DNA of 64,000 nucleotides from Natrinema ejinorense (GTDB lineage Archaea > Halobacteriota > Halobacteria > Halobacteriales > Natrialbaceae). The notes beneath the pieces are model-generated. The model was not told where the DNA came from, searched no databases, and saw only the letters and a program-made list of their open reading frames with translations. Location: NCBI RefSeq assembly GCF_002494345.1, contig NZ_NXNI01000001.1, forward strand, positions 3,782,001 through 3,846,000, given 5' to 3'. Of the stretch, positions 21 through 5,392 are shown one piece after another. The position numbers were made by a program, and so were the translations under genes. How positions within the stretch are numbered: the stretch's first letter is position 1; the number at the start of each line of letters is the position of its first letter.

Positions 21-102
21 ACGGTCTACTGTCCGTCAGTGCCGGTGGGACCGGGACCGTACTGTGGTCCCACCGGGCAATCGGGACGGCAAACCGTCTC
101 AG
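21..102 (+). repeat. 82-bp dispersed repeat, copy A
   Basis: An 82-bp segment recurs in reverse complement at 44668-44749 with only about nine or ten differences. Its centre is an inverted repeat: ggtgggacc is followed by ggtcccacc about 13 nt later, so a transcript could fold into a hairpin. It begins overlapping the stop codon of the DUF5787 gene and extends downstream of it. The second copy also sits in a 3' intergenic gap, so a terminator-like or REP-like role is inferred. Confidence 0.8.
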
Positions 103-1103
103 CCGAACCGATCGAGTCCCGACTGTCGTCGCCGCTTTCCGCTCGGCTCGGCCTCCCACGCGGTTCGGCGATCGCGCTCGGCCTCGAGGTCGACTCGAGA
201 CTCGGACGCCGACGTCGGTTGGTATCCCGGACACGAGGACCCACACTCCGAGCCGGCGTCGACCACTCGGGCCTTCCACTCGCAGTAGGGAAGCGTCGCA
301 CCGCTGGCGTCGTCCGGGCGGCAGGCCATACAGGCGGGGACGTCGTACGTTCGCCACCCCTTGCCGTAGGCCCGTTCGGCGATCCGTCGGCGGGTGCGAG
401 CCTTCGCCTCGGGGGAGACGACCTCGATTTCGGTGCGGCCGGGGTGGGACTCGAGTGGCTCGATGCCGGGCTCGTCGACGGCCAACGGCGTCGGCTCGCG
501 GAGCACCTCGATCTCGAGGGAGCCGCCCGCGTCCGCCCCGTCGCGGTGAACTCGCCAGACGCCGACTGCGTCGGGGATCCGGTTCAGGTGGGCGCGCGTC
601 ACGTAACTCTCGGTCGCGAGGACGACCTCGTCGACCAGTCCGAGACTGACGTCCGTTCGCAACTGGGCCTCGAGGTCCCCCGGGCGGCCGAGGTCGGGTT
701 TGTTCTCGATCCCGAGGAGTCGGTCGTACCAGTCGGGGTAGCGGGCGACCTGTCGGACGTACTCGCGGCTCCTGGTCGTGGTCGCGCCGTGGTCGCGTTC
801 GAAGAAGCCGATCTCGACGGCCCGCTCCGTCGCGCTGCGGGCGCGCTCGGGGTGGCAGTCGAAGGCGTCCTTCCAGTAGCGGGCCCGTCCGGTGCCGACG
901 GCCGAATCGATGGCCGCGTCGGGGATCGACTCGCTCGTGATCGCGACGCGGTCGGCGAATTCGGGGCCGGGTTCGACGCGGATGACATCGAGGATCCGCC
1001 CCCCTGGATCGGCGACGCTCCCGCCGAGTTGGCGCGCGACGATCCCCTCCTCGCGCTCCTCCAGGCGGGCGCACAGTTCGAGTTCGAACGCGAACTCCGA
1101 CAC
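99..1103 (-). CDS. DUF5787 family protein, probable RecB/Cas4-like nuclease
   Basis: The 334-residue protein matches the haloarchaeal DUF5787 family as I recall it. I chose the GTG at 1103 because the homologous-looking sequence begins there (FAFELELC); upstream codons in frame look non-coding. Visible motifs are Pro123-Asp124, then Glu133-Asn-Lys135 eight residues on (a PD-x8-ExK arrangement), Gln147 in AQLRTD, a Cys at 11, and Cys258-x2-Cys261-x12-Cys274 near the C terminus, plus Cys287-x3-Cys291. That layout resembles RecB-family nucleases with the iron-sulfur staple of Cas4 and AddB, in which one N-terminal Cys joins three C-terminal ones. The nuclease role is inference; the family has no established function known to me. 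It is divergent from the regulator at 1263. Confidence 0.75.
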   Translation of the reverse strand: MSEFAFELELCARLEEREEGIVARQLGGSVADPGGRILDVIRVEPGPEFADRVAITSESIPDAAIDSAVGTGRARYWKDAFDCHPERARSATERAVEIGFFERDHGATTTRSREYVRQVARYPDWYDRLLGIENKPDLGRPGDLEAQLRTDVSLGLVDEVVLATESYVTRAHLNRIPDAVGVWRVHRDGADAGGSLEIEVLREPTPLAVDEPGIEPLESHPGRTEIEVVSPEAKARTRRRIAERAYGKGWRTYDVPACMACRPDDASGATLPYCEWKARVVDAGSECGSSCPGYQPTSASESRVDLEAERDRRTAWEAEPSGKRRRQSGLDRFG

Positions 1104-1262: not shown

Positions 1263-2174
1263 ATGAGCGGAGAACGGTCGGCGGCCGCGGTCTTCGGGCT
1301 CCTCTCCGACGAGACGCGGATCGACGTGCTTCGGGAGATCGCCATCGCCCAGGCCGAGCGCCCACACAGCGCCGGCCCGGCGGAGCTCTCCTTCTCGACG
1401 ATCTACGAGCGGGTCGACATCGACAACACGTCGAAGCTCTCCTACCACCTCGGCGAACTCGAGGGGCTGTTTCTGCGAAAGGGCGACGACGGCTACTCGC
1501 TGACACACGCCGGCGAACGGATCGTCCGGCTACTCTTGTCGGCAAACTACGGCGAGCCGGGGGGAGTCGGCGGGACGGCTGTCCGGGGATCGTGTCTGCT
1601 CTGTGGGGCGGCGTCCCTCGAAGCGTCCCTCGACAACCAGTTCCTGAAGATCGGCTGTCGCGACTGCGGGCGCGACATCGCGGGCTACGAGGTCACGCCG
1701 GCACAGGTCCGCGAGCGGTCCGCTTCGGCCGTCATCGACGCGCTCACCCATCGAATGGGGGCCCACTACCGGCAGGTTCGGGGCGGCGTCTGTCCGTCGT
1801 GTGCCGGGCGCGTGTCTCTCGAGGTGGTCGAGGCCGGCGAACCCGACGCCGATCCGTTCCACGCGATCGATCGGTGTGAGGAGTGTCTCCGATCGTACTC
1901 CGCCCCGTTGACGCTCCGATCGGCCTACCACCCCGAATCGGTCGCGTTCTGCTGGGAGCGGGGCGTCGACGTGCTCTCGAGCGCGCCCTGGGAACTGCTT
2001 GGCTACGTCTCCGGGGGCCAGTGGTCGGGCACGCGTACCGCGACGGAGCCCGACGAATACGAGGTCGTCTACCGCCTCGAGGGGGACGAGCTTCGACTCG
2101 AGCTCGCGTCGGACCTGTCGGTCACGCGGACCGAGCGCGTGCGCCGCGAATCGGTCCGCGATCGCCGGTCCTGA
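1263..2174 (+). CDS. winged-helix regulator with zinc-ribbon C-terminal domain (DUF7351-like)
   Basis: A 303-residue predicted DNA-binding protein. Residues about 5-90 form an ArsR-like winged helix (AVFGLLSDETRIDVLREIA, then a helix containing SKLSYHLGELE). The rest carries four CxxC knuckles (CLLC, CRDC, CPSC, CEEC), suggesting two zinc sites. The architecture is the same as the protein encoded at 38688-39608, so the two are paralogues. The ATG at 1263 follows an AT-rich stretch and gives the expected N terminus; the open frame continues upstream only as an artefact of high GC. The ligand and targets are unknown. It faces away from the DUF5787 gene, with which it may share a control region. 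Confidence 0.8.
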   Translation: MSGERSAAAVFGLLSDETRIDVLREIAIAQAERPHSAGPAELSFSTIYERVDIDNTSKLSYHLGELEGLFLRKGDDGYSLTHAGERIVRLLLSANYGEPGGVGGTAVRGSCLLCGAASLEASLDNQFLKIGCRDCGRDIAGYEVTPAQVRERSASAVIDALTHRMGAHYRQVRGGVCPSCAGRVSLEVVEAGEPDADPFHAIDRCEECLRSYSAPLTLRSAYHPESVAFCWERGVDVLSSAPWELLGYVSGGQWSGTRTATEPDEYEVVYRLEGDELRLELASDLSVTRTERVRRESVRDRRS

Positions 2175-2411: not shown

Positions 2412-3644
2412 ATGGTAGGAAATCGACAACCGGAGGTGAACATCGGGCTCGTCGGTCACGTCGACCACGGCAAGACGACGCTGGTGCAAGCCCTCAGCGG
2501 CTCGTGGACGGACCAGCACAGCGAGGAGATGAAACGCGGTATCTCGATCAGGCTCGGCTACGCCGACGCCACGTTCCGCCACTGCGAGGGGCTCGAGGAA
2601 CCCGAGTGTTACACCGTCGAGGAGGAGTGTCCGGACGGGTCGGAAAGCGAGCCGCTGCGGACCGTCTCGTTCGTCGACGCCCCAGGGCACGAGACCCTGA
2701 TGGCGACGATGCTTTCGGGCGCGTCCCTGATGGACGGTGCCGTGTTGGTAGTCAGTGCCAACGAACCCGTTCCACAGCCCCAGACCGAGGAGCATCTGAT
2801 GGCGCTGGATATCATCGGCATCGAGAACATCGTCATCGCACAGAACAAGGTCGACCTCGTCGACCCCGAGACGGCTCGGAACAACTACGAGCAGATCAAG
2901 GAGTTCGTCGAGGGAACGGTCGCGGAGGACGCCCCCATCGTCCCCGTCTCCGCGGGCCAGGAGGTCAATCTCGACTTGCTCATCCAGGCCATCGAGGAGG
3001 AGATCCCCACCCCGGATCGGGATCCCGACGCCGATCCCCGGATGCACGTCGCCCGCAGTTTCGACATCAACAAACCCGGGACGACCGCGAAAGACCTCGC
3101 CGGTGGCGTCCTCGGCGGGAGTCTCGTACAGGGCGAGCTCGAGGTCGGCGACGATATCGAGATCCGGCCCGGTCGCGAGGTCGAGGAGGGCGGACAGTCC
3201 GAGTACGTCCCCATCGAAACGACCATTCGCTCGCTCCAGGCCGGCGGCGAAGCCGCCGATACCGTCACGCCGGGCGGACTGCTCGGTGTCGGGACCGGAC
3301 TCGACCCCTCGCTCACAAAGGGGGACGCGCTGGCAGGCCGGATGGCCGGCCCGCCGGGGACGCTCCCGCCGACGTGGAACGAGTTCACCATGGACGTCGA
3401 CCTGCTCGAGCGGGTCGTCGGCGCGGAAAGCGGCGAGACGGTCGACGAGATCAGCACCGGCGAGCCGCTGATGATGACCGTCGGGACGGCGACGACCGTC
3501 GGCTCGGTTACCAGCGCCCGAAGCGGCGAGTGCGAGGTCCGACTCAAACGCCCCGTCGCCGCCGATCCGGGGACGAAAATCGCGATCAACCGCCGCATCG
3601 GTGCGCGCTGGCGGCTGATCGGGCTGGGAACGCTCACGGACTAA
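2412..3644 (+). CDS. eif2g: translation initiation factor IF-2 subunit gamma
   Basis: The 410-residue GTPase subunit of archaeal aIF2 binds initiator methionyl-tRNA and delivers it to the small ribosomal subunit. G motifs are clear: [10 protein letters not shown] near residues 15-24, DAPGHETLM (G3) and AQNKVDLVD (G4). Cysteines of the characteristic insert appear in the stretch around CEGLEEPEC and EEECP. Domains II and III follow, ending in [10 protein letters not shown]. Length is normal for the family. It heads an operon with a PIN protein, Rpo7, Spt4 and dephospho-CoA kinase, an arrangement conserved across archaea, so it couples translation, transcription and CoA synthesis genes. Confidence is very high. 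Confidence 0.97.
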
Positions 3645-3648
3645 GGCG

Positions 3649-4041
3649 ATGAGCACGCGGACGCAGGTCGCACTCGATACGAGCGCGCTCATGATGCCGG
3701 TCGAACTCGACGTTCGGCTGTTCGAAGAACTCGAGCGGCTCCTGGACTCGTTCGAGCCGACGATTCCCCAGGCCGTTCTCGAGGAACTCCGGCGGCTCTC
3801 GGAGAAGGGCGGTCAGGAGGGAACGGCCGCGACCGTCGGCCACGATCTGGCGACCGAACGCTGTCTCGTCGTCGATACGGAGGCGTCGTACGCCGACGAC
3901 GCGCTGGTCGAACTCGCCCGCGAGGGGACCGTCGACTACGTCGTCACGAACGATCGTCCGCTGCGCGACCGGGTGCTCGAAGCGAACAGACCGGTAATTG
4001 CATTACGCGGGAGAAACAAGTTAGCGATCACTCAACCATAG
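3649..4041 (+). CDS. PIN domain protein (Fcf1/VapC-like ribonuclease fold)
   Basis: A 130-residue single-domain PIN protein. The N terminus has the typical LDTSALMMPV strand with the first catalytic Asp at about residue 9. Acidic residues follow in the middle and near YVVTNDRPLRDRV at the C terminus. It starts 5 nt after aIF2 gamma and its stop codon abuts the ATG of rpo7, so it is co-transcribed with translation and transcription genes. Stand-alone PIN proteins at this locus resemble Fcf1-type rRNA-processing nucleases; a role in rRNA maturation is inferred from context rather than proven. No antitoxin gene is adjacent, which argues against a VapBC toxin. Confidence 0.9.
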   Translation: MSTRTQVALDTSALMMPVELDVRLFEELERLLDSFEPTIPQAVLEELRRLSEKGGQEGTAATVGHDLATERCLVVDTEASYADDALVELAREGTVDYVVTNDRPLRDRVLEANRPVIALRGRNKLAITQP

Positions 4042-4611
4042 ATGTACAAACGGGTTAGACTGAAGGACACGGTAGAAGTACCGCCGGAAGAACTCGGCGA
4101 CGTATCGCCGGATCGAGTCAAGCGACTGCTCCAGGACAAACTCGAGGGGCGGATGGACGAAGAGGTCGGCAGCGTCGTCTCCGTCACCGAGGTGCACGAT
4201 ATCGGCCAGGGGACGGTGTTACCGAACCGGCCTGGCGTCTACTACGAGGCCGAATTCGACGCCGTCACGTTCGATCCGCAGATGCAGGAAGTCGTCGACG
4301 GCACCGTCGTCGAGGTCGTCGAGTTCGGTGCCTTCGTCGGGATCGGCCCCGTCGACGGCCTCTTGCACGTCTCGCAGATCAGCGACGAATACCTCGCCTT
4401 CGACGGCGAGAACCAGCGCCTCGCCTCGAACGAGTCCGCACGTTCACTTGGCGTCGACGACGCCGTCCGGGCTCGCATCGTCACCAAGAGCATCGACGAA
4501 CGCAACCCCCGTGACTCGAAGATCGGGCTCACCGCCAAACAGCCCGGCCTCGGGAAACACGGCTGGCTCGAGGAAGAGCGAGAGAAACGCGAAGCGACCG
4601 CAGGTGAATAA
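4042..4611 (+). CDS. rpoE1: DNA-directed RNA polymerase subunit Rpo7 (E')
   Basis: A 189-residue homologue of eukaryotic RPB7. The N-terminal RNP-like domain begins MYKRVRLKDTVEVPPEELG. The S1 domain lies at roughly residues 80-165 and contains GTVVEVVEFGAFVGIGPVDGLLHVSQ. With Rpo4 it forms the stalk of the archaeal polymerase, which binds nascent RNA and helps open the promoter. The acidic C-terminal tail is a haloarchaeal trait. The start codon directly follows the PIN stop (TAGATG), and spt4 follows after 2 nt, so expression is tightly coupled. Confidence 0.96.
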   Translation: MYKRVRLKDTVEVPPEELGDVSPDRVKRLLQDKLEGRMDEEVGSVVSVTEVHDIGQGTVLPNRPGVYYEAEFDAVTFDPQMQEVVDGTVVEVVEFGAFVGIGPVDGLLHVSQISDEYLAFDGENQRLASNESARSLGVDDAVRARIVTKSIDERNPRDSKIGLTAKQPGLGKHGWLEEEREKREATAGE

Positions 4612-4613
4612 CC

Positions 4614-4811
4614 ATGGCATCCGACCGTCTCGTCTGTCGTGAGTGTCACCGGGTCAACGAACCCGATAACGAAACCTGTGACGCCTGCAACTCCTCCTCG
4701 CTGACCGAGGACTGGGCGGGCTACGTCATCATCGCCCATCCCGAGGAAAGCGAGATCGCGACGGAGATGCAGATCACCGAACCGGGCGCGTACGCCCTGA
4801 AAGTTCGCTGA
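4614..4811 (+). CDS. spt4: transcription elongation factor Spt4 (formerly RNAP subunit E'')
   Basis: A 65-residue protein with a zinc ribbon made by Cys8, Cys11, Cys22 and Cys25, followed by an acidic alpha/beta domain ending EPGAYALKVR. Spt4 pairs with Spt5 and keeps elongating polymerase processive. Length and cysteine spacing fit the archaeal family. It lies between rpo7 and the CoA kinase gene with almost no spacing. Confidence 0.95.
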   Translation: MASDRLVCRECHRVNEPDNETCDACNSSSLTEDWAGYVIIAHPEESEIATEMQITEPGAYALKVR

Positions 4812-4816
4812 TTCAC

Positions 4817-5392
4817 GTGACCCGCGACGACGACCAGCGTTCGGCGTCCGCCGACGGCGACGATCAGCTACTGGTTTTGCCCGACGAACTCCGCGACGAA
4901 CTCAAAGAGCCGATGGGCCCGATCGAGACGGACGCGGATCGGCTCCTCGAGGCCGTCGATGGACCCCTGATCGCTGTCGGCGACGTCGTCACGTATCACC
5001 TCCTGCAGGCGGGCCGTCGACCCGACGTCGCACTCGTCGACGGCCGGACCAAACGCAGCGCCGTCGACGAGGAGATCCGCGAGGCGGTCACGTCCGGCGC
5101 GAGCATCGAAGTTCGGAATCCGCCTGCGGAACTCTCCGCGCCCGTCGTTCGGGCACTTCGCCGGGCGCTCTCGACTGCGGAACCGACCACCGTTCTGGTC
5201 GACGGGGAAGAAGATCTCGTCGCCCTGCCGGCGATCGCCGCCGCACCCGAGGGTGCGAGCGTCGTCTACGGCCAGCCCGACGAGGGGATGGTTCACGTCG
5301 TCGTCACCGACGACGACCGAACGGCGATGCGCGAACTCCTGGAGCGTTTCGAGGGCGACACCGAGCGATTCTGGACGTTACTGGACGGCTAA
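4817..5392 (+). CDS. GTP-dependent dephospho-CoA kinase (DUF359)
   Basis: A 191-residue protein starting at a GTG 5 nt after spt4. The family motif GDVVTYHLLQAG with DVALVDGRTKR and the later GEEDLVALPAIAAAPEG stretch identify it as the archaeal GTP-dependent dephospho-CoA kinase, which performs the last step of CoA synthesis and is unrelated to bacterial CoaE. The first 20 residues are an acidic, Asp-rich extension. It closes the aIF2 gamma operon; the next downstream DNA is a non-coding gap. Confidence 0.92.
   Translation: MTRDDDQRSASADGDDQLLVLPDELRDELKEPMGPIETDADRLLEAVDGPLIAVGDVVTYHLLQAGRRPDVALVDGRTKRSAVDEEIREAVTSGASIEVRNPPAELSAPVVRALRRALSTAEPTTVLVDGEEDLVALPAIAAAPEGASVVYGQPDEGMVHVVVTDDDRTAMRELLERFEGDTERFWTLLDG

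Follow-up and report, generated by a model that had tools for sequence, protein, structure and literature searches.

The DUF5787 protein encoded in the window, the whole 64,000-nucleotide stretch of Natrinema ejinorense DNA analysed here, is probably a metal-dependent PD-(D/E)xK nuclease (we put the probability of this reading at roughly 0.6). Its fold comes closest to that of MmcB-like proteins, it carries a winged-helix insert, and its two paralogues would serve housekeeping DNA processing or repair. The gene runs on the minus strand from a GTG start (1103-1101) to a stop at 99-101, at the coordinates that an earlier note made from the letters of the window had given. The DUF5787 label given in that note is borne out by a match to the whole Pfam profile (PF19100, 1-278 of 278) with E 5.2e-103 and 345 bits, against a curated cut-off of 25 bits. 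DUF5787 was the only Pfam family to match up to an E value of 10, and a search of NCBIfam with the same protein gave no match. Searches of PDB sequences with phmmer and hmmsearch returned nothing meaningful (CDGSH only, at E about 1 over 27 residues), and DUF5787 was named in no paper found in our literature search. All residues that the earlier note had singled out (P123, D124, E133-N-K135, Q147, C11, C258, C261 and C274) are present at the positions it gave, and the protein has three further cysteines, C83, C287 and C291. Coordinates are collected in Table 1.

Table 1. Features of the DUF5787 gene and its product, with positions in the window
Feature	Position	Strand	Basis
DUF5787 coding sequence (paralogue type B)	99..1103	-	GTG start, 334 aa; start backed by the aligned N-termini of homologues
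Predicted PD-(D/E)xK nuclease core, residues 3-57 and 123-207, split by the winged-helix insert	483..1097	-	AlphaFold model; VIA-align matches over residues 1-207
E7, motif I glutamate, helix 1	1083..1085	-	150/150; AlphaFold model
C11, conserved yet dispensable	1071..1073	-	Cys in 145/150, Ala or Ser in the other five
D39, proposed motif II catalytic aspartate, strand 37-45	987..989	-	150/150; AlphaFold model
Winged-helix insert separating motif II from motif III, residues about 58-122	738..932	-	Secondary structure; MarR/BlaI/Fur-type matches
P123-D124, 'PD' of the earlier note	732..737	-	D124 varies in 22/150
E133-N134-K135, motif III, strand 126-134	699..707	-	Conservation and AlphaFold model
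Q147 to D151, motif IV, helix 144-154	651..665	-	Both invariant; AlphaFold model
C-terminal four-cysteine site C258, C274, C287, C291	231..332	-	Each 150/150; C261 inside the site not conserved

Predicted fold and closest structural relatives

The AlphaFold2 model (82-sequence alignment) has a mean pLDDT of 91.7 and a pTM of 0.90. Its elements run from helix 3-17, which bears E7, through strand 21-27 and strand 37-45 with D39 to the insert, and then through strand 126-134 with E133, K135 following directly after it, helix 144-154 with Q147 and D151, strand 159-164, helix 170-175 and strand 181-187. The helix-strand-strand-strand-helix-strand order of the PD-(D/E)xK core is present, the insert sits before the third strand, and the nuclease core that the earlier note had proposed from motifs is found in the model with E133, K135 and Q147 in place. 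The insert, about 65 residues separating D39 from E133, matches the winged helices of MarR, BlaI and Fur in VIA-align with Z of about 5 and rmsd of 1.9-2.5 over 54-64 residues.

The top VIA-align match to the model is 3dnx, a member of the Pfam MmcB-like family (PF06319), which covers 139 of 146 residues with a Z of 11.2 and an rmsd of 5.6. After it come PaqCI (Z 8.3), SfsA (7.6), Card1 (7.1), EndoMS/NucS (6.7-6.8), BamHI (5.5) and Bax1 (5.2), and most matches over residues 1-207 are PD-(D/E)xK enzymes; the matches concern mainly these residues, 208-334 being barely covered. With Foldseek no PDB entry matched at an E below 0.15, and in a viral fold search phage MmcB-like proteins led, with probabilities up to 1.0. 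A PD-(D/E)xK-type nuclease fold is thus supported for DUF5787 by the model, and catalysis is predicted. EndoMS/NucS, SfsA, PaqCI and Card1/Can2 have the core in common with residues 1-207 (Z 5.9-8.3) but differ in their domain make-up, and their similarity to DUF5787 is of the general superfamily level.

MmcB-like proteins (PF06319; 3dnx, Caulobacter MmcB) also have the order R-x(1-2)-D followed by E-x-K that is seen in DUF5787. In hhalign, the DUF5787 core scored 23.8 against an MmcB profile of 12 sequences, compared with 18.3 for the best of 50 unrelated control families. The alignment puts the strand-helix-strand after motif IV in register (MmcB 'CDRlFFA...P..cGL', DUF5787 'VDEVVLAT...IPDAVGV'), but at a probability of only 9.5%, so that kinship with MmcB rests on structure. 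At about 160 aa, MmcB differs in having neither the winged-helix insert nor the four-cysteine domain, and its sequence similarity to DUF5787 is marginal. PF06319 matches neither DUF5787 (Pfam, E up to 10) nor any protein of the window's own genome; we therefore describe MmcB-like as the closest known fold to the DUF5787 model and do not claim family membership.

Two paralogues with a conserved predicted active site

A tree of 150 sequences separates into two groups, A (48 sequences, support 1.0) and B (102, to which the window copy belongs), and each of ten genomes fetched with both copies holds one A and one B. The second DUF5787 gene of the window's genome, G000:C1:2890904-2891743, is a paralogue A that matches DUF5787 at 403 bits and keeps all the catalytic residues and the four C-terminal cysteines, while it differs from the window copy in showing 30-40% identity, in the absence of C261 and in its neighbours.

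Conservation was assessed over the same 102 group B and 48 group A homologues. Identical in all 150 are E3, E7, E15, R24, Q25, R36, D39, R52, Y122, W125, E133, N134, P136, L138, Q147, D151, D158, E243, R251, C258, C274, C287 and C291, the active-site residues being invariant at identities down to about 30%. K135 is kept in 149, the sole exception being a B homologue (locus L138, 4668-5897) in which the catalytic lysine is replaced by asparagine (K135N). The motifs of the earlier note stand in part. E133-x-K135 and Q147 are conserved far beyond chance, and C258 and C274 are likewise kept, but its 'PD' is not: position 124 is Asp in 128 of the 150 homologues and D127 is not conserved. Five invariant residues, E7, D39, D151, C287 and C291, had been missed. 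As D124 is replaced in 22 homologues and directly precedes the strand bearing E133-x-K135, it hardly qualifies as the motif II aspartate. Going by the model, the predicted catalytic aspartate of motif II is most likely D39. The resulting layout, with a glutamate in motif I, an aspartate in motif II, E-x-K in motif III and a polar motif IV, matches the superfamily description for Hjc (E9/D33/E46-K48/D61; PMC1913061).

Proposed mechanism

The mechanism that we infer, in its catalysis, its metal, its DNA substrate and its role in repair, would run as follows. Metal ions would be held by E7, D39 and E133, the attacking water would be positioned by K135, and Q147 and D151 on the second core helix would complete the active site. 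Lying between the catalytic strands, the winged helix would place DNA against the E7/D39/E133/K135 site, and the insert probably sets specificity. In this way the two ancient paralogues of haloarchaea would do housekeeping work in DNA processing or repair. MmcB is described as an endonuclease of the PD-(D/E)XK type that protects against mitomycin C and cisplatin (PMC9578287). A repair role is on that ground a reasonable guess for DUF5787, and by this analogy the 'DNA repair' half of the 'DNA repair or defence nuclease' put forward in the earlier note is still plausible. A further possibility, which we offer tentatively and at well below even odds, is that the two universal, catalytically intact Halobacteria paralogues, with their class-specific architecture of an inserted winged helix and a C-terminal four-cysteine metal site, might perform a core, unnamed step of DNA repair or recombination, possibly as a pair.

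Gene neighbourhood and alternative functions

Upstream of DUF5787-B, 61 of 101 B loci have a gene for aIF2-gamma that runs on the opposite strand, and a metallo-beta-lactamase-fold gene is convergent with DUF5787-B in the same proportion (61/101). Paralogue A lies downstream of a NUDIX gene in the same orientation (15 of 18 loci, median gap 131 bases) and converges in 15/18 with a gene for DUF5797, a family of unknown function. Around the A and B loci examined there was no repair or defence operon and no conserved DNA-repair neighbour.

The aIF2-gamma gene, with PIN-domain and Rpb7 genes coming after it, would suit a nuclease that acts on or processes RNA. These genes are divergent from DUF5787, however, and so do not form one operon with it, paralogue A sits beside the NUDIX and DUF5797 genes instead, and the nearest folds are DNA-acting; we regard an RNA-directed role as unlikely. 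Some PD-(D/E)xK proteins are non-catalytic, and the winged-helix insert would fit a protein that had kept the nuclease fold, lost catalysis and now serves as a DNA-binding scaffold or in the regulation of transcription. Every active-site position is invariant across paralogues A and B, which would not be expected once catalysis had been lost, and such a role is unlikely as well.

Two features of the window near DUF5787 may be recorded here. Its divergent neighbour (1263-2174, plus strand) encodes a winged-helix regulator that combines DUF7347 and DUF7351, matches HTH_20 and contains pairs of cysteines. Other genomes have a homologue of it upstream of DUF5787, but there, in the loci found, the two genes share a strand. 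Positions 2412-5392 (plus strand) hold a translation/transcription cluster of aIF2-gamma, a PIN_9 domain protein, an Rpb7-like S1 protein and a DUF359 protein, which is conserved near DUF5787-B in many Halobacteria.

C-terminal cysteines

The four invariant cysteines follow the spacing C-x(11-19)-C-x(11-12)-C-x3-C, with one group A outlier at 27. C261 is found in 54 of the 102 group B sequences and in none of the 48 of group A. The five homologues in which C11 has given way to Ala or Ser (L086, L094, L136, L143 and L144) retain all four C-terminal cysteines. To judge from these sequences, the four can complete a putative metal site without C11, with zinc or an Fe-S cluster equally possible, and a structural metal bound there would stabilise the C-terminal domain.

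The earlier note had instead likened C11 and C258-x2-C261-x12-C274 to the split Fe-S staple of Cas4 and AddB, a reading that would make the protein a Cas4/RecB/AddB-type iron-sulfur exonuclease with a 4Fe-4S cluster held by C11 and three C-terminal cysteines. Cas4 (PF01930) and the RecB/AddB-type nucleases do have the superfamily fold, the E-x-K and the motif IV glutamine in common with DUF5787, and an N-terminal cysteine that is nearly conserved, together with a C-terminal cysteine cluster, speaks for such a reading. The staple is nevertheless not borne out by the sequences, since C11 is lost in natural homologues whose four-cysteine site is already complete without it, C261 is variable, and the spacing differs from the C-x2-C-x5-C of haloarchaeal Cas4 (the Cas4 site also takes one N-terminal cysteine). 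Kinship with Cas4 or RecB finds no backing in profiles either: hhalign against a Cas4 profile of 25 haloarchaeal sequences scored 13.0 in the wrong register, at noise level (unrelated controls reach 18.3), and no Cas4 or RecB profile was matched in Pfam at E up to 10. DUF5787 differs further in its winged-helix insert, which lies between motif II and motif III, and altogether we consider a Cas4-type exonuclease improbable. The 50 VIA-align matches listed include no solved Cas4 or AddB structure, although a structural likeness to these may still exist beyond them.

Distribution in Halobacteria

Among the Halobacteria genomes sampled, 289 of 292 carry the family, in nearly every case as two copies, and a control search found it in Haloferax volcanii. 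The three genomes without it (G021, G217 and G285) measure 1.9-2.3 Mb and belong to two families. Taxonomic sampling covered one phylum, from which 393 genomes were drawn; 81 of these matched, 80 inside Halobacteria and one, below threshold, outside. This last match (G481) reached 21 bits over the C-terminal part only, below the cut-off, and was unconfirmed by the family alignment; no convincing homologue outside Halobacteria was found among the sampled relatives in the phylum. None of the viral contigs searched encodes DUF5787. Among plasmid records there was a single match, a protein 34% identical to the window copy on a Natronorubrum replicon of 828 kb.

Defence had also been entertained in the earlier note. 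A nuclease directed against phages or mobile elements would be in keeping with a fold common in restriction enzymes, which occur in the VIA-align list too, but the gene is near-universal and chromosomal, inherited in a vertical two-copy pattern among conserved chromosomal neighbours outside defence neighbourhoods, and the window protein has no PADLOC match, which makes this role very improbable and housekeeping DNA processing or repair the likelier one. Haloarchaea are known for their DNA-damage tolerance, and a near-universal, two-copy family of predicted nucleases with no assigned function marks a clear gap in haloarchaeal DNA metabolism. Its invariant residues and domain layout suggest mutants that can be tested directly in species amenable to genetics. 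The assembly of Natrinema hispanicum DSM 18328 (L099, 6001-6991) has DUF5787-B split into two frames of 365 aa and 145 aa, by a frameshift or a sequencing error.
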